A DNA stretch of 64,000 bases, from NCBI RefSeq assembly GCF_000746525.1, contig NZ_CP009048.1, forward strand, positions 3,403,501 to 3,467,500, in the 5' to 3' direction. The stretch is from Pseudomonas alkylphenolica (GTDB lineage: Bacteria > Pseudomonadota > Gammaproteobacteria > Pseudomonadales > Pseudomonadaceae). Both the position numbers and the translations under genes were made by a program. The notes beneath the pieces were generated by a model that worked only from the letters and a program-made list of their open reading frames with translations, made no database searches and was not told where the DNA came from. Numbering within the stretch: the stretch's first letter is position 1; each line of letters opens with the position of its first letter. Shown in pieces: positions 3,671 through 58,692 of this stretch.

Positions 3671-4060
3671 ATGGCAGCAATCGAACTGTGCGCCCTTGAT
3701 CAGGTCCCCGATGGCGGCGCACTCGGGCTCGAAACCACACTGCAAGGGCAATCTACGGCGTTGGTGGCGGTGCGACGCGGCATGCAGGTGTGGGTCTACC
3801 GCAATCGCTGCCCGCATTTTTCCATCCCCCTGGACTATCAACCGGGGTCGTTCAGTACCTACCAGACGCGGCTATTGATGTGCGTGCATCACGGGGCGAT
3901 GTTTCGTTTCGATGATGGCCGCTGCATCGATGGCCCTTGCGAGGGGGCGCGGCTGGACAGTGTCCCGGTGTACCAGCAGGACGGCTCGCTGTGGTTGGAC
4001 GAGGTTAATGGCGCACCCGTGCTGGTACCGCTGACAGGAGTGCAATGCCATGACGCTTGA
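3671..4060 (+). CDS. hapI: Rieske-type [2Fe-2S] ferredoxin
   Basis: A 129-residue soluble protein with the Rieske cluster motif CPH, then 21 residues, then CVHHG, giving the two Cys and two His ligands. There is no signal peptide or transmembrane segment. It matches hapI of the hap cluster. No partner oxygenase or reductase is encoded in the visible operon, so its electron acceptor is unclear; one idea is reactivation of the iron dioxygenase, as XylT-type ferredoxins do for catechol dioxygenase. It starts 4 bp after hapH and overlaps hapB by 11 bp. Confidence 0.83.
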   Translation: MAAIELCALDQVPDGGALGLETTLQGQSTALVAVRRGMQVWVYRNRCPHFSIPLDYQPGSFSTYQTRLLMCVHHGAMFRFDDGRCIDGPCEGARLDSVPVYQQDGSLWLDEVNGAPVLVPLTGVQCHDA

Positions 4061-4958
4061 TGTCGAGTCTGCCCAATTGCTCAAGAAATTGGCCGAGAGC
4101 GGGCTGAAGCCGTTTCATTTGATGCAGCCAGCCGAGGCTCGCGAGCTGATGGCAGGCCTGCGTCCCGAGGCCGAAGGGCCTGCGATGCACCATGTCGAAG
4201 AGGTGCAATTAGGTGGCGTGCGTTTACGGGTCTTGACCCCCAACGCTGTGGTTCGCGGCTCCATCCTTTACCTGCATGGCGGTGGCTGGGTGGTCGGTGG
4301 TCTTGATGACTTCGACCACTTCGCTCGTCAGTTGGCGCAGCGCACGCAGTGCACTGTGGTGCTGGTCGATTACCGCCTGGCGCCCGAGTTTCCATTCCCG
4401 GCTGCTCTGGATGACGTCGAGCAAGCGGCCCAGTGGCTGGTGGATCGCCGCGCGCAGCTGGCTGGCTCGGCCAATGGCCCGTTGATCGTTGCCGGCGATA
4501 GCGCCGGCGGCAACCTGGCGGCCGTGTTTGCCCAGCGGGCTGCCCAGCGTGGCCAGTCGCATTGGGCTCTACAGGTATTGCTCTACCCGGTCACCCAAGC
4601 GGATCTCGATGGCCCGAGTTACCTCGATTCGCAACGCCAGTTACTACTGACCCGCGAGGACATGCGCTGGTTCTGGGATCACTACCTGCCACAAGCCGAT
4701 CAGCGCCAGCAGGTGTCGGCTTCACCATTGGCAGCGAGGGATCTGCGTGGAGTACCACCAGCCGTGGTGCTGACGGCGGAATTCGATGTGCTACGCGAAG
4801 AAGGCCAGGCCTACGCCGACCGCCTAGCGCAGGCCGACATCACCGTTGTACAGCGCTGCTTCATCGGGCAGATGCACGGCTTCGTGACCATGCCGCTCCT
4901 CAGTGCCAGTCACACTGCGCTGGAGTGGCTCGGGGAGCAGATTGAGCCCTGGCTGTAG
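4050..4958 (+). CDS. hapB: 4-hydroxyphenyl acetate esterase (alpha/beta hydrolase, HSL family)
   Basis: A 302-residue hormone-sensitive-lipase-type esterase. The oxyanion motif is LHGGGW (about residue 75), the nucleophile elbow is GDSAGGN, the acid lies in AEFDVLREEG and the catalytic His in QMHGF. In the hap route this arylesterase splits the product of the Baeyer-Villiger step, 4-hydroxyphenyl acetate, into hydroquinone and acetate. The ATG at 4050 lies inside the end of hapI and is preceded by CAGGAG. Position directly before the monooxygenase supports the assignment. Confidence 0.88.
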   Translation: MTLDVESAQLLKKLAESGLKPFHLMQPAEARELMAGLRPEAEGPAMHHVEEVQLGGVRLRVLTPNAVVRGSILYLHGGGWVVGGLDDFDHFARQLAQRTQCTVVLVDYRLAPEFPFPAALDDVEQAAQWLVDRRAQLAGSANGPLIVAGDSAGGNLAAVFAQRAAQRGQSHWALQVLLYPVTQADLDGPSYLDSQRQLLLTREDMRWFWDHYLPQADQRQQVSASPLAARDLRGVPPAVVLTAEFDVLREEGQAYADRLAQADITVVQRCFIGQMHGFVTMPLLSASHTALEWLGEQIEPWL

Positions 4959-5018
4959 ACCCTTTAAGCCCATTACGAGCAATCGACAATACCCTGACAA
5001 CAAACAAGAGGTTTACCC

Positions 5019-6941
5019 ATGAGAACCTACAACACCACTTTGGCTTCCCTTGAATGTGATGATGAAACCCTGCGTGCCCACCTGCAAGGGGCGGATATTC
5101 CGACTCTACTGTTGACCGTGGCACACTTGACCGGCGACCTCAATGTGCTCAAACCAGCCTGGAAACCTGTGGTTGCCATGGGTGTCGCGCACAGCGGCAT
5201 GACGCCCGAAGTGGAGGCCGAGGTTCGCGAGGACTGCCTACAAAAGCTACTGGCCTTCCGCGACAGCGGTCTGCCGGTGCCGGCTCGGCCGAGCAGCGAG
5301 CAGTTGCATGCTTTGGGGACCTGGCTGATGGGTCCAGTCATTGAACCGTACTTGCCCTTGGTTGCAGAGGAACTGGTGACCGCCGAAGAAGACCCTCGCG
5401 CGCCCCGCTGGCATAAAGATCATGTGGCGGCCGGCCGCGAGTTCAAGGTAGTGATCATTGGTGCCGGCGAGAGCGGCATGATCGCCGCGTTGCGTTTCAA
5501 GCAGGCAGGCGTGCCCTTCGTCGTCTACGAGAAAGGCACCGACGTTGGCGGCACCTGGCGCGAAAACACCTACCCGGGTTGTCGCATCGACATCAACAGT
5601 TTCTTCTACAGTTTCTCCTTCGCCCGCAGCACCTGGGACGACTGTTTTGCCCCTGGCCCGCAGGTGTTCAGCTACATGCAGGCGGTGGCGCGGGATAAGG
5701 GCCTGTACGACCATATCCAGTTCAATACTGAAGTCACCGATGCCCATTGGGACGAAGACCGCCAGCGCTGGCAGCTGCTGTGCCGCGACAGCGCCGGGCA
5801 AACCCGTGTCGATAGCAACGTGGTGGTGTTCGCCGTCGGGCAACTGAATCGGCCGATGATCCCGGCCATTCCTGGTAAAGAGACGTTCCAAGGCCCGGCG
5901 TTCCATTCGGCGCAGTGGGATCACAACGTTGACTGGAGCGGCAAGCGAGTCGCCGTGATCGGCACCGGGGCGAGCGCTGCCCAGTTCATCCCGCAACTGG
6001 CCAAGACCGCCGCCGATCTTAAAGTCTTTGCGCGCACTACCAACTGGCTGCTGCCCACACCTGATCTACACGAGAAAATCTCTGACAGCTGCAAATGGCT
6101 GCTCGCCAATCTGCCCAACTACAGCCTGTGGTATCGAGCGACCAAAGTCATGCCACAAAGTGTTGGCTTTCTTGAGGATGTCGTGGTCGATGTCGATTAC
6201 CCCCCGACTGAAGTCGCGGTATCAGCACGCAACGATCAATTGCGCCGGGACATCTGCGCCTGGATGGAGCCGCAGTTCGCTGACCGGCCGGACTTGCGTA
6301 ACGTACTGATTCCGGATTCGCCAGTCGGCAGCAAGCGCATCATCCGTGACAATGGCACCTGGATATCGACGCTCAAACGTGACAACGTCAGCATGATTCG
6401 TCAACCGATCGAAGCAATCCGTCCCACGGGTATTTGTTGTATCGACGGCACTGTACACGAGTTCGACCTGATCGTTTACGGCACCGGCTTTCATGCCTCC
6501 AAGTTCTTGATGCCGATCAACATCACCGGGCGCGACGGCCTGGCACTGCGCGAGGTCTGGAAGGATGACGACGCCCGTGCCTACATGGGCATGACCGTAC
6601 CCGGCTTTCCCAACATGTTCTGCATGTACGGTCCTAACACCGGGCTGGTGGTGTACAGCACCATCATTCAGTTCTCGGAGTTCACCGCGACCTACATTGT
6701 CGACGCCGTGCGGCTGCTGCTGGAAGGTGGGCACCAGAGTATGGAGATCAAAGCGCAGGTGTTCGAGAGTTACAACCAGCGTGTCGACCAAGCCAACGGC
6801 TTGCGAGCCTGGGGATTCTCGCGGGTAAACAGCTGGTACAAAAACAGCAAAGGCCGGGTGACGCAGAATTTCCCGTTCAATGCCGTCGAATTCTGGCATA
6901 GGACCCACGAAGTACAGGCTACCGACTACTGCCTTTCCTGA
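5019..6941 (+). CDS. hapA: 4-hydroxyacetophenone monooxygenase (FAD Baeyer-Villiger monooxygenase)
   Basis: A 640-residue protein, the length of the characterised P. fluorescens ACB enzyme and similar to it along its whole length as recalled. It has a long N-terminal extension, a first Rossmann motif GAGESG (148-153), the Baeyer-Villiger fingerprint FxGxxxHxxxW at 290-300, and a second nucleotide motif GTGASA (315-320). With NADPH and O2 it inserts oxygen into 4-hydroxyacetophenone to give 4-hydroxyphenyl acetate. AAGAGG precedes the ATG. It closes the hap operon. It was called hapE in early papers and hapA in the later cluster description. Confidence 0.95.
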
Positions 6942-7033
6942 TCGCCTCCCTAGCGGGGTTCCAGTCACAGCCTTACTATGCGAAAGCAGGCGGTGCCTGG
7001 CCGCCAGGTAATAATTACAAGAAGGGGAAGGTC

Positions 7034-7966
7034 ATGGATCGTCTACTCATTACGGAAGCATTCGTGCACGTGGCACAGACCGGTAGTTTCTCCAAGGCGG
7101 CGGAGCAGTTGGGCGTGACCCGTTCGGTGATTACTAATCGTGTGCAACAGCTTGAGACGTTCATCAATTCTCCGCTGTTTCATCGCAGCACTCGCCACGT
7201 CCGCCTTTCGGACATCGGCGAAGCCTATTTCCAAGAATGTGCCGACATGGTCGCCGGCTTTCACGGTTTGACCGAGAAAATGCGCAACCAACGCTCCAAC
7301 CTCACCGGCCAGTTACGCGTCCAGGTCCTGCAAGGATTTGCCATCGATCACCTGGGCCCGATGTTAGCCGAGTTCACCGCAATGTATCCAGAGATCGAGT
7401 TCGATGTCGTGGTCAATGACCGCGTGGTCGACCCGATCGAAGAGGGCTTCGACATCGCTTTTCAGATGTTCCCGCCGATGGCCGAGCGCTTGGTGGTGCG
7501 CAAGCTGTTCAACGTCCACAGGTTGTTCTGTGCGTCGCCCGCATACTTACGCGAACAGGCCGCGCCCGAGCATCCACAGCAGCTCAAGGATCACCGTATA
7601 GCGTTGTACGGTGGCTACCCGTCACGCAACCGATGGCAGTTCACATGGGGTGAGGAGTGCATCGATCTGATCCTGCACGGCCAGGTGCGCTCCAGTTCGG
7701 TCCATCTGCTGCGCGATTACGCCTTGAGCGGGGCTGGCATCACCTGCTTGCCCACCCTCATCGCTAGTAACTACCTTATCAGCGGGGAGTTGGTACCAAT
7801 TTTGACCAACTATCGGCTGTCATCCTTCGACTTCGCCGCCGTGTATCCAGAAACCCAGCGTCGGGCACTGAAGGTGCGGACCTTGATCGATTTTTTGATC
7901 GAGCGTATCGGTGATGCGCCTGAATGGGATCAGCAATTACTGGATCGCGGGATACTGATCCTCTGA
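7034..7966 (+). CDS. LysR-family transcriptional regulator
   Basis: A 310-residue LysR-type protein. The N-terminal winged helix-turn-helix is clear (about residues 5-62, FVHVAQTGSFSKAAEQLGVTR), followed by a linker helix and a substrate-binding domain from about residue 90. It lies 92 bp after hapA on the same strand and 170 bp before the PchX/flavoprotein genes, so it could govern either block. The ligand is unknown; an alkylphenol or hydroxyacetophenone is a reasonable guess. GGGGAAGG precedes the ATG. Confidence 0.85.
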   Translation: MDRLLITEAFVHVAQTGSFSKAAEQLGVTRSVITNRVQQLETFINSPLFHRSTRHVRLSDIGEAYFQECADMVAGFHGLTEKMRNQRSNLTGQLRVQVLQGFAIDHLGPMLAEFTAMYPEIEFDVVVNDRVVDPIEEGFDIAFQMFPPMAERLVVRKLFNVHRLFCASPAYLREQAAPEHPQQLKDHRIALYGGYPSRNRWQFTWGEECIDLILHGQVRSSSVHLLRDYALSGAGITCLPTLIASNYLISGELVPILTNYRLSSFDFAAVYPETQRRALKVRTLIDFLIERIGDAPEWDQQLLDRGILIL

Positions 7967-7979
7967 TCACGAAGGATGG

Positions 7980-7996
7980 TTCGCTGTCTTAGCGAA
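7980..7996. promoter_or_regulatory. Inverted repeat behind the LysR gene
   Basis: TTCGCT-5 bp-AGCGAA is a perfect six-base dyad 14 bp after the LysR stop. It could be a weak transcription end or an operator for the following pchX-like operon, whose start is 140 bp downstream. No T-run follows. Confidence 0.3.
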
Positions 7997-8135
7997 AACA
8001 TGGCAACGCGGTATCGCCTCCGAATTCTGTAGGCACCCCTTATAGATCAATGGCTTGAGATGAAACGGCAACAGACCCTAGCGCCAACCTGGCGTAGGAC
8101 TTGTTTGCCGAGCCAGCAACATTCAGGAGAACAGC

Positions 8136-8795
8136 ATGAAGCGTCCACCCCCAATCAAATACCAACCTGGGCCCCACCTCATAACCTCGCGCAGAACCTT
8201 TCTTCTGGGAACAGCCGCTACGCTGGGTATGACCGTGGTCAGTACTCCTCTGCTCAGCATGGCAGCTAGCCTGGCAAGCCCCGTACGCCAGGAGACTCTG
8301 TCCCTATGTCGTATTGTTTACGACCCCCGTCACCCGGCCAGCGCCCGATTCGGCGCTCAGTCCGAACAGGCGGGCCATGCAACCCATGCCATGCGAGGTG
8401 ATGTAACCGAATTGTGGACTGAGTATCTGGCTGAGCAATGGCGCAAGCAGCCCGTCGCCATTGCTGGCATGACACACGCTGACGCCTTGTTCGTATTGGA
8501 ACGACTCGGTTGGGATCATGGCCTGCGCGTGACCTTCCGCGCCGAACATCGGGTGCAGGCGAATGGCATTACAACTCACAGTATCGCCGGCCCCGAGTCC
8601 ATGCTGGCCAGTTGCGCAGCACTTGCAGCGCAACGATACGAATGGGCGGACTGCATGGCCGGTGTGGTCAGATATCCTCCCAGGCAAGCCATCCTACTCG
8701 CTGAAAGATCGCTGGCCATGCCCGGCAATTACCCGACTGACTCTGCCCGTCCACTCTACACCTGGGTCATCACCCCTCATCACCGCATTGTGTAA
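8136..8795 (+). CDS. PchX-like Tat-exported protein of unknown function
   Basis: A 219-residue protein with a twin-arginine signal: SRRTFLLG at about residues 18-25, then a hydrophobic stretch and an Ala-rich cleavage zone near residue 45. The mature part resembles no enzyme I recognise. It weakly aligns with the second PchX at 55722-56405, with shared GMT/GLL-x-DA-x5-VL and VxGxTxH-like segments. In both loci the gene sits directly upstream of a VAO-family flavoprotein that lacks any signal peptide; here the gap is 35 bp. The shared context suggests a role in export, flavinylation or assembly of that flavoprotein. AGGAG precedes the ATG. Confidence 0.7.
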   Translation: MKRPPPIKYQPGPHLITSRRTFLLGTAATLGMTVVSTPLLSMAASLASPVRQETLSLCRIVYDPRHPASARFGAQSEQAGHATHAMRGDVTELWTEYLAEQWRKQPVAIAGMTHADALFVLERLGWDHGLRVTFRAEHRVQANGITTHSIAGPESMLASCAALAAQRYEWADCMAGVVRYPPRQAILLAERSLAMPGNYPTDSARPLYTWVITPHHRIV

Positions 8796-8830
8796 GCGAC
8801 CAACCAATATCTTGATAGTGGAGTGAAGCC

Positions 8831-10471
8831 ATGAACTATCCACAGGGCGTGAGCGCCCAGGACTTCGATTCAGCATTGGACGAGTTTCGCCGTATCGTCG
8901 GTGCCGACAACGTGTTTATCAGCGAGGCGGATGTTGCCCTCTATCGGGATGCCTATTCACCAAAGTGGGGTGAATCGGACGAACTGGTAGCCTCCGCTGC
9001 CGTAGCCCCGACCACGGTCGAGCAAGTACAGGCCATAGTCAAGGCTGCCAACCGCTTGAGGATTCCATTGTTTGCCATATCCACGGGCAAGAACCTTGGT
9101 TATGGCGGCTCCGCTCCCAATATGAGCGGTAGCGTCATTGTCGATTTGAAACTGTTGAACAAGATCATTGAGGTCGATGACAAACGAAACTTCTGCATTG
9201 TGGAGCCAGGCGTTTCTTATTTTGACCTGTATAACTATATTCAGGAACGCGGTCTGAAGCTGATGATGGATGTCCCCGATCCGGGCTGGGGTAGCCCACT
9301 GGGTAATGCCCTGGATCACGGTGTTGGTTATACCTTGGGCAACTACCGTGACCATTTTGGCTCGCATTGCGGTATGGAAGTAGTGTTGCCGGACGGCGAA
9401 CTGCTGCGTACTGGTATGGCTGCGGTACCGGGTGCGGAAACCTGGGGCGAGAACAAATATGGTTACGGGGCTTATGTTGACGGCCTGTTCGCCCAGTCCA
9501 ACTTCGGTATCGTCACCAAGATGGGCTTCTGGATGATGCCGCAGCCCGAGCATTATCTTTCCTGTATGGTCAAGGTACCCCGTTACGAAGATATTATTCC
9601 GCTGATTGATACGGTCAATTATCTGGAAGACCAGGGTCTTATTGGTCATCCGCGCTATGGCTGCCCGATGGACTCGTTATGCCTGATGTGGGAGCCGGAG
9701 TCTTATAAGACGACCCGCGAGCTGATGCAACTTAATAATCAGCCAGGCGGTGCATCCGTTGCCGAGTACCAGAGTTATGCACAAAACCATGGGCTGGAAT
9801 ACTGGAATGTGGTGTTGAATTTCTACGGACCAAAAAAAACCCTGTTTGCCAACTGGGAGTATGCTCAGGAAAAATTCGCTGATATTCCCGGTGTACAGTT
9901 CGAGCAGTTGGAATCCTACAGCCTGCCCATTGCCAAGAAGGATCAGCAGAAGCTGCGTCACCAGGTGGCTCTTGGTATTCCGAATATGTCCATCTTTTCC
10001 ATAGGCGCACGCTCCGAAGCCATGCCAAACCCCGATGATGGCCATGCCTGGTTTGCCCCTATCGTGCCCCGTAACGGCAAGGCTTTCATCAAGGCCCATG
10101 AGGTATTTTGCAAAGCTGCCAAGGAACTTGGGCTGACCAGTGCGCCAATTGCGCGAACCAATGTTCCGCAGACATGGCAATACCGCAGTTATATTTACTT
10201 GTTCCCTTTCTTTATTTCGCGCAGTGACAAGGAACAGAACAGGAAAGCGGTCGATCAGTTCATCACATTGGTGAAGCTCGCCGCCGAGCACGGCTGGACG
10301 GAGTACCGCACTGCGCCGATCTTCCAGGATATCGTTGCCAGTACTTACTCCTTCAATAACAACGCGCTGCTGCGCTTTCAGAGTCTGCTCAAGGACACAG
10401 TTGATCCGAATGGCATTATTGCGCCAGGCCGGGGGGGAATCTGGCCGAAGCGTTACCGGGAGGATGCATGA
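8831..10471 (+). CDS. 4-alkylphenol/eugenol hydroxylase-type flavoprotein subunit (VAO/PCMH family)
   Basis: A 546-residue FAD-linked oxidase: an N-terminal FAD-binding domain (about 50-230, with STGKNLGYGG) and a C-terminal cap. Active-site Tyr91 and Tyr492-Arg493 match the phenol-binding Tyr95 and Tyr473-Arg474 of p-cresol methylhydroxylase. The FAD-linking tyrosine of PCMH is not conserved (FSIG instead of FGLY); instead GHAWFAP puts His405 where vanillyl-alcohol oxidase attaches FAD. The C-terminus DPNGIIAPG-x5-P is also VAO-like. With the adjacent cytochrome it probably acts as a dehydrogenase/hydroxylase on 4-ethylphenol. No signal peptide. Its stop overlaps the cytochrome start. Eugenol or 4-propylphenol are alternative substrates. 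Confidence 0.85.
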   Translation: MNYPQGVSAQDFDSALDEFRRIVGADNVFISEADVALYRDAYSPKWGESDELVASAAVAPTTVEQVQAIVKAANRLRIPLFAISTGKNLGYGGSAPNMSGSVIVDLKLLNKIIEVDDKRNFCIVEPGVSYFDLYNYIQERGLKLMMDVPDPGWGSPLGNALDHGVGYTLGNYRDHFGSHCGMEVVLPDGELLRTGMAAVPGAETWGENKYGYGAYVDGLFAQSNFGIVTKMGFWMMPQPEHYLSCMVKVPRYEDIIPLIDTVNYLEDQGLIGHPRYGCPMDSLCLMWEPESYKTTRELMQLNNQPGGASVAEYQSYAQNHGLEYWNVVLNFYGPKKTLFANWEYAQEKFADIPGVQFEQLESYSLPIAKKDQQKLRHQVALGIPNMSIFSIGARSEAMPNPDDGHAWFAPIVPRNGKAFIKAHEVFCKAAKELGLTSAPIARTNVPQTWQYRSYIYLFPFFISRSDKEQNRKAVDQFITLVKLAAEHGWTEYRTAPIFQDIVASTYSFNNNALLRFQSLLKDTVDPNGIIAPGRGGIWPKRYREDA

Positions 10472-10824
10472 TGAAGAAGTTACTGCTATGCAGCATCTCA
10501 GCCATGCTGACGCTGACCTCTCTGACAACATCAGCACAGGATCAGCAGTTGACACAGGGGAAAGCGCTATTCGGCAAGTGGTGCGTCGCTTGTCACGGAG
10601 CAGGACCAGGCCACCCCGGCACCCAGGCACTTGATCAGCGCTATCAGGGGTCGATGCCTGGTGTACTGGAACAACGTACCAACCTCTCGCCGGAGTTTGT
10701 TGCAGTCTTTGTCCGTAATGGCATTTCAGTCATGCCGTTCTTCCGCAAGACCGAGATCAATGACAATGAACTCGCTGCAATCGGCGCCTATCTATCGTCG
10801 CCGAAAGGCACAGCCGGTAACTGA
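10468..10824 (+). CDS. Cytochrome c subunit of the 4-alkylphenol hydroxylase
   Basis: A 118-residue c-type cytochrome with a Sec signal peptide (cleavage near SAQD, residue 23), the haem motif CVACH (about residues 39-43) and a distal Met in SVMPFF. It overlaps the flavoprotein gene by 4 bp, so the two are probably translated together. The mature ~95-residue size fits the small cytochrome subunits of PCMH-type flavocytochromes, which pass electrons from covalent FAD to periplasmic acceptors such as azurin. Confidence 0.88.
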   Translation: MMKKLLLCSISAMLTLTSLTTSAQDQQLTQGKALFGKWCVACHGAGPGHPGTQALDQRYQGSMPGVLEQRTNLSPEFVAVFVRNGISVMPFFRKTEINDNELAAIGAYLSSPKGTAGN

Positions 10825-10829
10825 GCCTC

Positions 10830-10861
10830 ACATTAACGCCCCACGTATGGGGCGTTAATGT
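10830..10861. terminator. Strong hairpin between convergent genes
   Basis: A perfect 14-bp stem (ACATTAACGCCCCA) with a CGTA loop starts 5 bp after the cytochrome stop and lies 26 bp beyond the end of the opposing SDR gene. There is no clear T-run, but its position suits a bidirectional terminator. Confidence 0.7.
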
Positions 10862-10887
10862 CCCAGTGGCTTATGAGGGCGCTTGAC

Positions 10888-11640
10888 TTAGACAATCGTG
10901 TAACCACCATCTACCAGGTAATAGGCACCGGTGACAAAGGAAGCATCGTCGGAAAGCAGAAAACGCACCACCTTGGCTACCTCATCGGGACGACCCAGGC
11001 GGGCGAGCGGGTGGCGACTGATAAGCTCGTTACGGGTTTCGTCTGGCAACGCATCCAGTAAAGGAGTGTTGATATAAGCTGGACCGACAGCATTGATTCG
11101 CAGCCCCTGCGCCCCATATTCCGCTGCGGTATTTCGGGTCAGTCCGATCACACCATGCTTGGCGGCGGTATAGCCGCCCATGCCGATATTGGCTACCGCA
11201 GAATGAATCGAGGCCATATTCACGATAGCACAGTTCTCAGCACCTGCTGCGAGCAGTGCCGGAATCTGAGCACGCATGCCGTAAAAAACGCCGTTGAGGT
11301 TGATATTGATGACGCGATTCCAATCTTCAATATCGGCCTCTGCCGCATCGGCCACATTGCTGGCGACGCCAGCATTGTTCACTGCATAGTTCAGCTTACC
11401 AAATGTATCTACAGCAAAAGCTACCAGCATTTCGTTATCCTCCACCAAGGCACTGTTGGCAACGAATACAGCCGCTTCGCCGTCAGCTGCCATGATTTCA
11501 TCCACTACCCGCTGGGCGCTGTCCCGATTGATGTCAGCCACGACCACCTTGGCGCCAAGTCGGGCGAGCTCTTTGGCTACCGCCTCGCCAATACCAGAAC
11601 CAGCCCCTGTAACCAGAGCAACCTTGTTATCGAATATCAT
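10888..11640 (-). CDS. Short-chain dehydrogenase/reductase, candidate 1-(4-hydroxyphenyl)ethanol dehydrogenase
   Basis: A 250-residue classical SDR: cofactor motif TGAGSGIG near the N-terminus, NNAG, and the catalytic Ser with YTAAK. The Asp after strand 2 (VVVADINR) favours NAD. It converges on the flavocytochrome operon. Oxidation of 1-(4-hydroxyphenyl)ethanol to 4-hydroxyacetophenone is the one step missing between the hydroxylase and HapA, so that role is inferred from context. GAGGTAGGA precedes the ATG. Confidence 0.75.
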
Positions 11641-54142: not shown

Positions 54143-55708
54143 TCAGAAATCGTTATTGAGGTCGATGCCCGAGCGGCCCGGAGCGAGGATGTTGTTCGGG
54201 TCCACCGCACGCTTGATGGCATGCTCCAGCTTGCGCTTGACCGGGCCATAGCTCTGCGCCACGCGATCCTGGAAGCGGGTGTTCACCCGATACACCGCAT
54301 AGCCTTCCTTCTCGAACTCATCCAGCAGCTCATTGAAGCAGGCGTCGGCGCGCTTGGTTTCCTCAGGATTGGTGCGGTCGTAGAGCACGTCGATGACGTG
54401 GTGCATGTCGCGCGGCGCCACGATGAACTCGGCCACATAATCCAGGCCGTACTTGTGCAGAACGCGCTTGGCCATGGCCGCCTGCTTCTTGCACTCGCTG
54501 CCACGCGCCTCGCTGACCGGCGCGAACCACATGGAGCCACCGCCCCCACGCCAGTTGTACAGGCCGAATTCCTGCAGGTTGGGCACGCCGGACATCAGCT
54601 GGGCACGGTATTTGAACGGCTGGGTGTCACCCGCCTCTTCCTGGGTGACGATACGGCCCTTGCCAAGTTTCTTGAAGACGTCAGTTACGATCTTCCAGTT
54701 TACGTCGACCTGTTCCTGGGTACCGTACAGCGCAGCGTAGAGGTTCCAGGCACCCATGCCGGTGTCTTTCTGCATCTGCTTGATCACGCTATCCGGCGTG
54801 TGGCCCGGCTCGGTGGTGTACTGGGCGCGGGTCAGGTGCGCACTGCCGGCTTCCCACAAGGTGCTGGCGATTACCACCGAGTTGGGGATGGTGTTGCTCA
54901 TGCGCAGCGGGCGCAGTGCATCGACGATCTCGACGATGTCCGCCTCGTCCTCGAAGATCACTTCGAACGGCTTGAACACGGGCGGCTTGGGCATCAGCCA
55001 GAAGCCCATCTTGGTGCAAATGCCATAGTTGGCCTGAGTGAACATGCCATCCAGGGTCGGACCATAGCCCCATTTGAAAATCTGCCAGGTGTTGCTGCCA
55101 GGCACGCCACCCATGCCGGTGCGGTAAACGTCACCGTTGGCCAGCACCACTTCCATGCCGCACTGCATCATGAAGTGTTCGCCGTAGGGGGTGTAGCCCA
55201 CGCCTCGGTCCATGGTATTGCCGACCGGGCCGGCAATCGCCGAGGGTGCCGAGAACGACAGCATCACCGGCAGGTTGTTTTCCTGGATGTAGTCATACAT
55301 CTGACCGAAGGTAACCCCCGGCTCGACCAGCGCATAGCACATTTCCGGGTCGATCTTGATGATCTTGTTCATCTTCTTCAGGTCAAGGATTACCTGACCG
55401 CGCTGCACCGGCGCGGCGGACCCGTAACCGAAGTTGCGCCCAGTGGAGATGGTCCAGATCGGAATTTTGTGTTCGTTACAGATCTTGACTACACCCTGCA
55501 CCTGCTCGACGGTGGTCGCGGTGACGGCGGCCGAGGGGGCATGAGCCGCATTCTCGACCGGCATCATGATCTTGTTGTAAGGCACCAACTGGTCGGATTC
55601 GACCAATACATTATCGTCACCCAGCAAGGCGCGGAATTTCTGCACCGCCTTGTTGAACTCGCCCTGCGTTACCCCTTTGGGCAACACAGCATTGTTTTGC
55701 TCGGACAT
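54143..55708 (-). CDS. pchF: p-Cresol methylhydroxylase flavoprotein subunit
   Basis: 521 residues, exactly the PCMH flavoprotein length. Tyr95 (NFGYG), Tyr384 (FGLYNWRGG), Tyr473 and Arg474 (AVYRV) fall at the positions known from PCMH: 384 carries the covalent FAD, the others bind the phenol. It oxidises p-cresol to 4-hydroxybenzyl alcohol and on to 4-hydroxybenzaldehyde, passing electrons to PchC. No signal peptide, although the enzyme is reported as periplasmic. It starts 13 bp after pchX. Confidence 0.96.
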   Translation of the reverse strand: MSEQNNAVLPKGVTQGEFNKAVQKFRALLGDDNVLVESDQLVPYNKIMMPVENAAHAPSAAVTATTVEQVQGVVKICNEHKIPIWTISTGRNFGYGSAAPVQRGQVILDLKKMNKIIKIDPEMCYALVEPGVTFGQMYDYIQENNLPVMLSFSAPSAIAGPVGNTMDRGVGYTPYGEHFMMQCGMEVVLANGDVYRTGMGGVPGSNTWQIFKWGYGPTLDGMFTQANYGICTKMGFWLMPKPPVFKPFEVIFEDEADIVEIVDALRPLRMSNTIPNSVVIASTLWEAGSAHLTRAQYTTEPGHTPDSVIKQMQKDTGMGAWNLYAALYGTQEQVDVNWKIVTDVFKKLGKGRIVTQEEAGDTQPFKYRAQLMSGVPNLQEFGLYNWRGGGGSMWFAPVSEARGSECKKQAAMAKRVLHKYGLDYVAEFIVAPRDMHHVIDVLYDRTNPEETKRADACFNELLDEFEKEGYAVYRVNTRFQDRVAQSYGPVKRKLEHAIKRAVDPNNILAPGRSGIDLNNDF

Positions 55709-55721
55709 TGATCAGACTCCT

Positions 55722-56405
55722 TCAGGCCTCGATCGAAAAAGAAACGAAACTGCCGGTCAGACCGGTGCTCACCGGGGCAGGCGCCGGCATGGCCGGTTGC
55801 TCACCCAGCGACGCCAGCAAATAGCCAACAGCAGACGCCCACTCGGAGGTATGCTCGCCACTGCGCGACGGTGCGCTCAACTGGCGCGGCGCAGCCAGAC
55901 TGCCCTGACGTTCGTCGGCGATATGAAAACCGGCACCACAGGCATGCAGCTGACGGCCGAGGCGACGCGAGCAGCCATCGGCCAGGTCGCTGCTGAGCAG
56001 ACGGTGGTGAGTAACGCCCGCCACACTGCTGTGCTGGCCGAGCCACTGCACCCGAGCGCCGGCGCTGCGGGCCATATCCAACACAAGGGTGGCTGTGGCG
56101 TCATCCAGCAGGCCGATCACACGCATCGGCTGACCACTGCGCAGCTGACGCTCGAAGCCCAACAGGCGACCGAGATCATGATCAAAGCGCTGAACCTGCA
56201 GCTGCGACCCTGCCGCAGCCTGAGCGCCGCGCAGGAAAACCGACTCAGCCGCACCCGCGCTGACCAGCGCCAACACCGGTCGTACGGCAGCGCTCGGCGC
56301 CGGGCTCTCGCCAGCTGCCAGCGCCCGCAGCGGACCGGCCATGGCCATACCGGCGATACTGCTCAGGGCCATGCCCTTGAGCACGAAACGACGATTCATA
56401 CTCAT
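55722..56405 (-). CDS. pchX: PchX, Tat-signal protein of the p-cresol operon
   Basis: 227 residues from MSMNRRFVLKG, with NRRFVLKG as twin-arginine motif, a hydrophobic core and Ala-rich cleavage site (ALAAGES). The mature part is Ala/Leu-rich and of unknown function. Gene order pchA-pchC-pchX-pchF matches P. putida NCIMB 9866/9869. AGGAG precedes the ATG at 56405; longer starts lack a signal sequence. A weak homologue occupies the same place at 8136-8795. Confidence 0.85.
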   Translation of the reverse strand: MSMNRRFVLKGMALSSIAGMAMAGPLRALAAGESPAPSAAVRPVLALVSAGAAESVFLRGAQAAAGSQLQVQRFDHDLGRLLGFERQLRSGQPMRVIGLLDDATATLVLDMARSAGARVQWLGQHSSVAGVTHHRLLSSDLADGCSRRLGRQLHACGAGFHIADERQGSLAAPRQLSAPSRSGEHTSEWASAVGYLLASLGEQPAMPAPAPVSTGLTGSFVSFSIEA

Positions 56406-56415
56406 GACAGTCTCC

Positions 56416-56757
56416 TCAAGGCTGAGCCGCTGGGGCCGGCAGGCTCGACAGGTATTCAGCCACCTGAGTAAGGGATTCGTCATCAACATAGGACGCCGGG
56501 AATGCCGGCATGGCACGGAAGCCGTTGCGCACAATGGCCTTGATGTAGGCTTCCGGCAGGCCGCGACCCTCAAGAACCGGCCCTACCCCGACTTCGGGCT
56601 TGTGGCAATGGCCACAAACCTTGTCATACAGGTTCTTGCCACTGCCCCACTGGCTGTCGGCCTGCGCCTGTCCCGCTGCGACCAGCAGACCAAAGGGAAG
56701 CACAACTCCAGTCACGAGCATCCGTTTCACAGCTGCGCCGCTAAAGGGAAATGTCAT
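56416..56757 (-). CDS. pchC: p-Cresol methylhydroxylase cytochrome c subunit
   Basis: 113 residues with a Sec signal (cleavage after AGQAQA) and mature ~80 residues; haem motif CGHCH and distal Met in FRAMPAF. It accepts electrons from PchF. GGAG lies before the ATG at 56757; an in-frame start 42 bp upstream is less likely. It lies 51 bp after pchA and 10 bp before pchX. Confidence 0.93.
   Translation of the reverse strand: MTFPFSGAAVKRMLVTGVVLPFGLLVAAGQAQADSQWGSGKNLYDKVCGHCHKPEVGVGPVLEGRGLPEAYIKAIVRNGFRAMPAFPASYVDDESLTQVAEYLSSLPAPAAQP

Positions 56758-56808: not shown

Positions 56809-58692
<1,884 letters not shown>

Follow-up and report, generated by a model that had tools for sequence, protein, structure and literature searches.

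PchX, a small twin-arginine protein encoded beside p-cresol methylhydroxylase genes, as a probable Tat escort for a signal-less flavoprotein

We analyzed a 64,000-nucleotide stretch of the Pseudomonas alkylphenolica genome (contig NZ_CP009048.1, positions 3,403,501 to 3,467,500; below, the window) that contains the genes of a flavocytochrome, p-cresol methylhydroxylase (PCMH), together with pchX, which encodes a small protein bearing a twin-arginine (RR) signal. From comparison of sequences, PchX is quite likely a dedicated hitchhiker partner, or escort, of the twin-arginine translocation (Tat) system: it would bind the folded flavoprotein subunit PchF, loaded with flavin adenine dinucleotide (FAD), and supply in trans the signal that PchF lacks. 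The evidence for this reading includes the strong linkage of PchX to flavoproteins that have a cytochrome partner and two lineages in which the flavoprotein itself bears an RR signal and PchX is missing. The relevant features of the window are as follows (ORF, open reading frame; VAO, vanillyl-alcohol oxidase).

54143..55708, - strand: pchF, PCMH flavoprotein, signal-less, the proposed cargo; PDB 1dii match
55722..56405, - strand: pchX, small RR-signal protein, the proposed Tat hitchhiker or escort; ORF, begins MSMNRRFVLKGMALSS
56313..56405, - strand: putative Tat signal peptide of PchX, MSMNRRFVLKGMALSSIAGMAMAGPLRALAA; from the sequence itself, end picked by eye
about 56416..56757, - strand: pchC, c-type cytochrome subunit with Sec-type signal; ORF and Cytochrome_CBB3 match, start codon picked by eye
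56809-58287, - strand: aldehyde dehydrogenase gene beside pchC; gene order
8136..8795, + strand: second PchX-family protein with RR signal, ITSRRTFLLGTAATLG; ORF, linked to PchX via intermediates
8136..8240, + strand, RR at 8190-8195: putative Tat signal of the second PchX; from the sequence, end picked by eye
8831..10471, + strand: second VAO-family flavoprotein, signal-less, the proposed cargo; FAD_binding_4 match, 36% identical to PchF
10468..10824, + strand: second c-type cytochrome subunit with Sec-type signal; ORF and Cytochrome_CBB3 match

Flavocytochrome loci of the window

On the - strand the genes run in the order aldehyde dehydrogenase, pchC, pchX, pchF and then those for the protocatechuate 3,4-dioxygenase subunits, with 13 nt between pchX and pchF. 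PchF matched PDB 1dii with the top score and over 521 of 521 residues, and is therefore a classical PCMH. It has Tyr at the FAD-linking position 384, and its N-terminus, MSEQNNAVLPKG, is free of a signal. A first-pass annotation of this DNA had stated that at both flavocytochrome loci an RR protein is encoded directly 5′ of a signal-less VAO-family flavoprotein accompanied by a Sec-type cytochrome, and this description was correct for both. When the N-termini were inspected by eye, both flavoproteins were signal-free and both cytochromes Sec-type, while each upstream protein had an NRR or SRR signal with a hydrophobic stretch; the Pfam TAT_signal model matched the second PchX below its cut-off (E 0.055). 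The host genome encodes TatC as well as a third pchC-pchX-pchF set (L002 / L125, G000:C1:2218456-2220722), the PchF of which is 80% identical.

PchX and Tat signals across flavoprotein loci

We surveyed 236 flavoprotein ORFs with at least 400 matched residues, two shorter pieces of 238 being excluded. The loci came from named genomes, from class, genus and phylum searches, from plasmids (16 of 34 records) and from 229 genomes of one family, apparently Sphingomonadaceae; from the named-genome scan the best 80 of 575 loci were taken, and two locus pairs are duplicates between sources. Our first RR filter overlooked true PchX genes, and a loose one flags shadow frames (of the 41 cytochrome-less rows, with or without an own signal, 20 were flagged, mostly through such frames). 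Because these filters were unreliable, the counts rest on the family model and on genes seen by eye, of which L068 and L091 were counted and L083, L086, L093, L128, L136 and L139 were seeded.

Among the 195 ORFs linked to a cytochrome gene, 167 had PchX within 3.5 kb, 8 had it farther away in the examined stretch, 12 carried a Tat signal of their own and 8 had neither. PchX was absent beside most of the 41 ORFs without a cytochrome gene: 31 had neither PchX nor a signal, 8 had PchX, one had a distant PchX and one (L164) had its own signal. The association of a cytochrome gene with PchX or an own signal gave a Fisher p of 8e-23, a value that ignores relatedness; an independent-pairs sign test on the tree gave a median p of 0.016 (range 0.008-0.375), so that the association was weaker but present. 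The pattern also held after collapsing the sequences at 99.5, 90 and 80% identity. At 80%, 92 cytochrome-linked clusters comprised 73 with near PchX, 7 with far PchX, 5 with an own signal and 7 with neither, and 19 of 25 clusters lacking a cytochrome had neither. Four of the cytochrome-linked ORFs with neither are on short or cut contigs (two in L110, and L171 and L173), and in the actinobacterial loci L138, L144 and L146 both the cytochrome and PchX are missing. The position of the nearest PchX gene varied: in 171 cases it was 5′ on the same strand 115 times, 3′ on the same strand 53 times and 5′ on the other strand 3 times. In six alphaproteobacterial loci PchX lies 5′ of the cytochrome gene, and in L069 it lies ahead of a tandem pair.

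Absence of pchX from most pchF loci, which the first-pass annotation had named as a refutation of its proposal, was not observed. In the named-genome set 79 of the 80 loci have a PchX-family gene (77 by the model and two by eye), and the sole exception, L032, has a contig end 196 bases upstream. The PchX signal is out of sight in 2 of the 79, owing to a contig start (L095) and a masked stretch (L075). Across 249 Pseudomonas genomes we found 12 places with a PchX match of E below 1e-70, in 11 genomes, and each lies directly 5′ of one of 12 PchF places (at least 79% identity), a linkage beyond what chance would give. No flavoprotein was found near a further Pseudomonas match (G515; E 5e-4, with an inner stop), which looks like chance. 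Across 369 genomes of the class, the close PchX model found 6 places, 5 of them adjoining PchF; the sixth (G134; E 5e-4) is an RR protein with no flavoprotein nearby whose C-terminal GGCGG resembles that of SoxY.

Signals on the flavoprotein itself provided further evidence. RR signals were scored across all 236 ORFs, and other signal types were judged by eye in those N-termini that were inspected. Fifteen flavoproteins were flagged and 13 kept; in the two rejected, L204 and L238, translation probably starts only after the RR. Twelve of the 13 have a detected cytochrome gene, and a PchX match was found in none of the 13 loci. For instance, the flavoprotein of L135, on a Novosphingobium plasmid, starts MSDLNLDRRGLLGAGIIGAASLGLGTGASA and has an adjacent cytochrome gene and no PchX. 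Among the matches listed for this flavoprotein, 116 of 120 have RR within the first 25 residues. Of the four that do not, one has LR in its place and three start farther along the protein. Twelve of the 13 form one clade with a support of 100 (FastTree) inside a clade of 108 rows, and 94 of the other 96 rows of that larger clade have PchX. L175 is a separate second case, and its nearest neighbour, L120, has PchX. Own Tat signals therefore have two origins on the flavoprotein tree. That the cargo bears a signal when its partner is missing is predicted by hitchhiking and not by an assembly or redox role. In three of these flavoproteins (L159, L160 and L161) the RR signal is followed by a lipobox-like LASC, and they may be Tat lipoproteins.

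Some records bearing nitrifier names (Nitrosomonas, Nitrosospira, Nitrotoga, Nitrospira and Nitrobacter, with L066 given as 'Nitrospirae') carry loci resembling pchX-pchF. PchF identity is 61-86% in L062, L066, L070, L071, L073, L075, L076, L078, L089, L090 and L092. In the window itself, genes for an esterase-type hydrolase, a Baeyer-Villiger-type monooxygenase, a LysR regulator, the PchX-like protein, the flavoprotein, the cytochrome and a short-chain dehydrogenase/reductase are clustered at 4050-11640. These genes look like a route for 4-ethylphenol or hydroxyacetophenone, and the second flavocytochrome may be a 4-ethylphenol methylenehydroxylase.

The PchX family and its predicted structure

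The two RR proteins of the window are barely recognizable as relatives. The best piece in a BLASTP comparison was 14 residues long with an unconvincing E of 0.025, and HHalign of the two starting homologue sets gave a probability of 25 and an E of 8e-4. These sets held the best 120 of 254 PchX homologues (E<=1e-3) and all 31 of 31 homologues of the second protein. Intermediate members such as L022, L060 and L100 match both of the family models built from the listed homologues, and the two proteins therefore belong to one very divergent family. Iterated models gathered 170 PchX-family ORFs across the examined loci. Over 72 loci the median pairwise identity was 25% among PchX proteins, whereas the flavoproteins reached 66% and the cytochromes 38%.

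All 120 close PchX homologues among the matches listed have an RR pair within their first 40 residues, and the pair is invariant in the 120-row alignment; it occurs in the same region of 28 of the 31 homologues of the second protein. A strict RR-signal filter was passed by 162 of the 170 ORFs. By eye, L062, L120 and L139 of the remaining eight also have RR, L118 and L182 have KR and L200 is ambiguous; L095 is cut by the contig start and L075 is preceded by a masked stretch. No other feature of PchX is as well conserved as the RR pair.

No Pfam or NCBIfam model matched the window PchX proteins above its cut-off, no GMC gamma family was found at E<=0.01 in a scan of 120 PchX homologues, and the best match in a PDB sequence search (E 0.39) was an unrelated enzyme. 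Nor was a cofactor motif conserved in 162 mature PchX sequences: CxxCH was found in none and CxxC in 3, and 45 have no Cys at all. PchX as a single query matched no plasmid; since PchX is too divergent, this search missed the plasmid-borne family members in L133-L147. The carrier family appears to be undescribed and unrelated by sequence to Pfam or PDB families.

An AlphaFold2 model of PchX has disordered residues 1-38 followed by an alpha/beta domain at 39-227, with a predicted template modelling score (pTM) of 0.77 and a per-residue confidence (pLDDT) mostly above 85. A fold search with this model found no clear PDB relative, and the gamma subunit of the Burkholderia cepacia FAD-glucose dehydrogenase (BcGDH) was not among the matches listed, an absence that carries no weight. 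Pairwise distances of PchX followed those of PchF (Spearman 0.62, or 0.57 with the cytochrome held fixed) more closely than those of the cytochrome (0.31, or 0.14 in the corresponding partial comparison). As the cytochrome gene was chosen automatically, we regard this as mild support for a pairing of PchX with PchF.

Export mechanism, alternative explanations and related systems

In the mechanism we propose, PchF would be made without a signal and would fold and take up FAD in the cytoplasm. PchX would then bind the folded, FAD-loaded PchF, and its RR signal would carry the pair through TatABC. PchC would cross unfolded via Sec, receive its haem in the periplasm and join PchF there; the covalent bond between FAD and Tyr384, where present, would form once PchF meets PchC. 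We infer the binding of PchX to PchF, the dependence on Tat and the release of PchX. Such a release after export is probable, and PchX would be an escort rather than a subunit, because the enzyme is described as PchF2PchC2 (PMC12724174).

The first-pass annotation had given covalent FAD as the reason for folding before export and had PchX bind an already flavinylated PchF. Kim et al. are said to have found in 1995 that covalent FAD attachment requires the cytochrome subunit. The haem of c-type cytochromes is attached in the periplasm, and Sec passes unfolded chains. Since attachment needs a cytochrome that has received its haem in the periplasm, and since position 384 is a residue other than Tyr in 63 of the 167 PchX-linked flavoproteins with a cytochrome (Tyr in 87, unaligned in 17), the cargo is probably not yet flavinylated. 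That reason for folding thus needs revision: it is more likely as a flavoprotein loaded with FAD that the cargo has to fold in the cytoplasm. The other part of that proposal, that PchX supplies the RR signal in trans, is strongly supported by the comparative evidence, including the two in-cis replacements. In earlier work PCMH was located in the periplasm (Hopper 1985, cited in PMC12724174), and the related BpfA and BpfB, made together in E. coli, had ∼0.4 FAD per complex (PMC12724174).

We also consider, tentatively and leaning slightly against it, a more extended scheme. Here the escort would be detachable, and hand-over of the FAD-loaded flavoprotein in the periplasm to the haem-loaded cytochrome would trigger both its release and, in enzymes that have Tyr384, covalent flavinylation, so that export, assembly and locking of the cofactor follow one another in a fixed order. 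Such escorts would serve a large part of a flavocytochrome superfamily, and on two occasions the signal would have passed to the cargo and the escort disappeared.

Several observations weigh against an escort. Four cytochrome-linked ORFs (L187, L195, L216 and L222) have neither PchX nor an own signal with at least 3 kb examined on each side; the three genomes that hold them carry PchX at other loci. Conversely, eight PchX loci have no cytochrome gene by the survey criteria. L095 and L097 among them begin at a contig end, L174 and L236 have a CxxCH frame farther away or on the other strand, and no cytochrome gene was found near L055, L075, L140 and L148. The PchX members L118 and L182 have KR in place of RR. 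A linked-chain AlphaFold2 prediction of PchX with PchF gave a pTM of 0.65 and no confident docking (the alignment was shallow, and neither FAD nor the dimer was included); by our own estimate this is about the value expected of two undocked domains, so that the model speaks neither for nor against binding. Finally, strong linkage would likewise be expected of a periplasmic protein with a different function that is encoded nearby and is itself exported by Tat. In L140 and L148, PchX lies directly 3′ of the flavoprotein with no cytochrome gene found nearby, a pattern in which PchX may follow export rather than the cytochrome.

The best of the alternatives, which we nevertheless consider unlikely, is that PchX acts in the periplasm on PchF-PchC, as a factor for assembly or flavinylation that is exported by Tat on its own account, PchF being exported in some other way. 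Linkage to cytochrome loci and absence beside most cytochrome-less loci fit this equally well. However, it does not explain the 13 loci in which the flavoprotein bears a Tat signal and no PchX match was found, a cytochrome being detected in 12 of them, and it leaves a signal-less periplasmic flavoprotein unexplained. A flavinylation factor is also at odds with the presence of PchX both with and without Tyr384, although bonds via other residues are outside that count. For this reason, and as PchX has no conserved cofactor motif, a role only in flavinylation or electron transfer, which the first-pass annotation had named as the alternative, fits poorly.

It is very unlikely that the flavoprotein reaches the periplasm by means of its cytochrome's Sec signal and PchX has another job, although localization of BpfAB is ascribed to the cytochrome signal (PMC12724174). 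The window cytochrome does carry a Sec-type signal, and 195 of the 236 flavoprotein ORFs have an adjacent cytochrome gene. However, the cytochrome cannot form a complex before export, because Sec passes unfolded chains and haem is added in the periplasm; an unfolded apocytochrome cannot pre-assemble with the flavoprotein. Moreover, the own-Tat lineage retains its cytochrome and yet has RR on the flavoprotein, and L140 and L148 pair PchX with a flavoprotein where no cytochrome gene was found nearby.

We give hardly any credence to a role of PchX as redox partner of the flavocytochrome or in handling its substrate, in view of the lack of a conserved cofactor motif noted above, its very fast divergence, and the activity in E. 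coli of BpfAB from two genes alone, in an assay with added FAD and phenazine methosulfate (PMC12724174). It is just as improbable that the linkage is an artefact of shared ancestry or operon inheritance without functional meaning: many of the 236 ORFs are related and the tree-aware test is barely significant, but the linkage survives the collapse at 80% identity, gene order is variable, and the absence of PchX coincides, twice, with a signal on the flavoprotein.

Chaperones of the TorD/NapD type are each dedicated to one Tat cargo; they are cytoplasmic and signal-less and bind the signal of the cargo. PchX differs from them in having its own signal, with none on the cargo. In E. coli PaoABC the carrier is an FeS (iron-sulfur) subunit of the enzyme. 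As proposed for PchX, subunits of PaoABC ride on a partner's Tat signal, in ternary hitchhiking (PMC4273604); that enzyme differs in being built of molybdenum, FeS and FAD subunits. BcGDH gamma is a further parallel, being a small RR protein paired with an FAD catalytic subunit; the latter depends on gamma to be secreted and hands electrons on to a multi-haem c subunit (PMC6719666). Gamma has a GMC-type cargo and five helices and stays in the complex (PMC6719666), whereas PchX is predicted to be alpha/beta, has no GMC gamma family match and is not named in the PchF2PchC2 enzyme (PMC12724174). The BpfAB loci resemble pch in having a flavoprotein-cytochrome pair and a small RR gene, here 3′ of the cytochrome (L137, L129). 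No mention of this gene was seen in the available part of PMC12724174; judging by the BPF (bisphenol F) gene numbering there, one further ORF without a name lies between those for the cytochrome and the hydrolase, and in another strain of the species (L137) that ORF codes for an RR protein.

Tat hitchhiking is thus established, and what is new here is a sequence-unrelated carrier that would serve the VAO/PCMH superfamily, probably as an escort and not as a subunit. We found no prior proposal of a PchX-type escort in the literature searched, and an older one is possible. PchX genes are mostly recorded as hypothetical proteins, to which the escort reading would give a function, and the natural in-cis swaps make the idea directly testable. 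A practical rule would also follow: to produce enzymes of the PCMH, eugenol hydroxylase or BPF hydroxylase type in the periplasm of other hosts, one would probably have to include the third gene or give the flavoprotein a Tat signal. If true, the proposal would bring in a carrier family that shows no detectable relation in sequence to known gamma-type hitchhikers, and would explain how a signal-less, cofactor-bearing enzyme long known in the periplasm arrives there.
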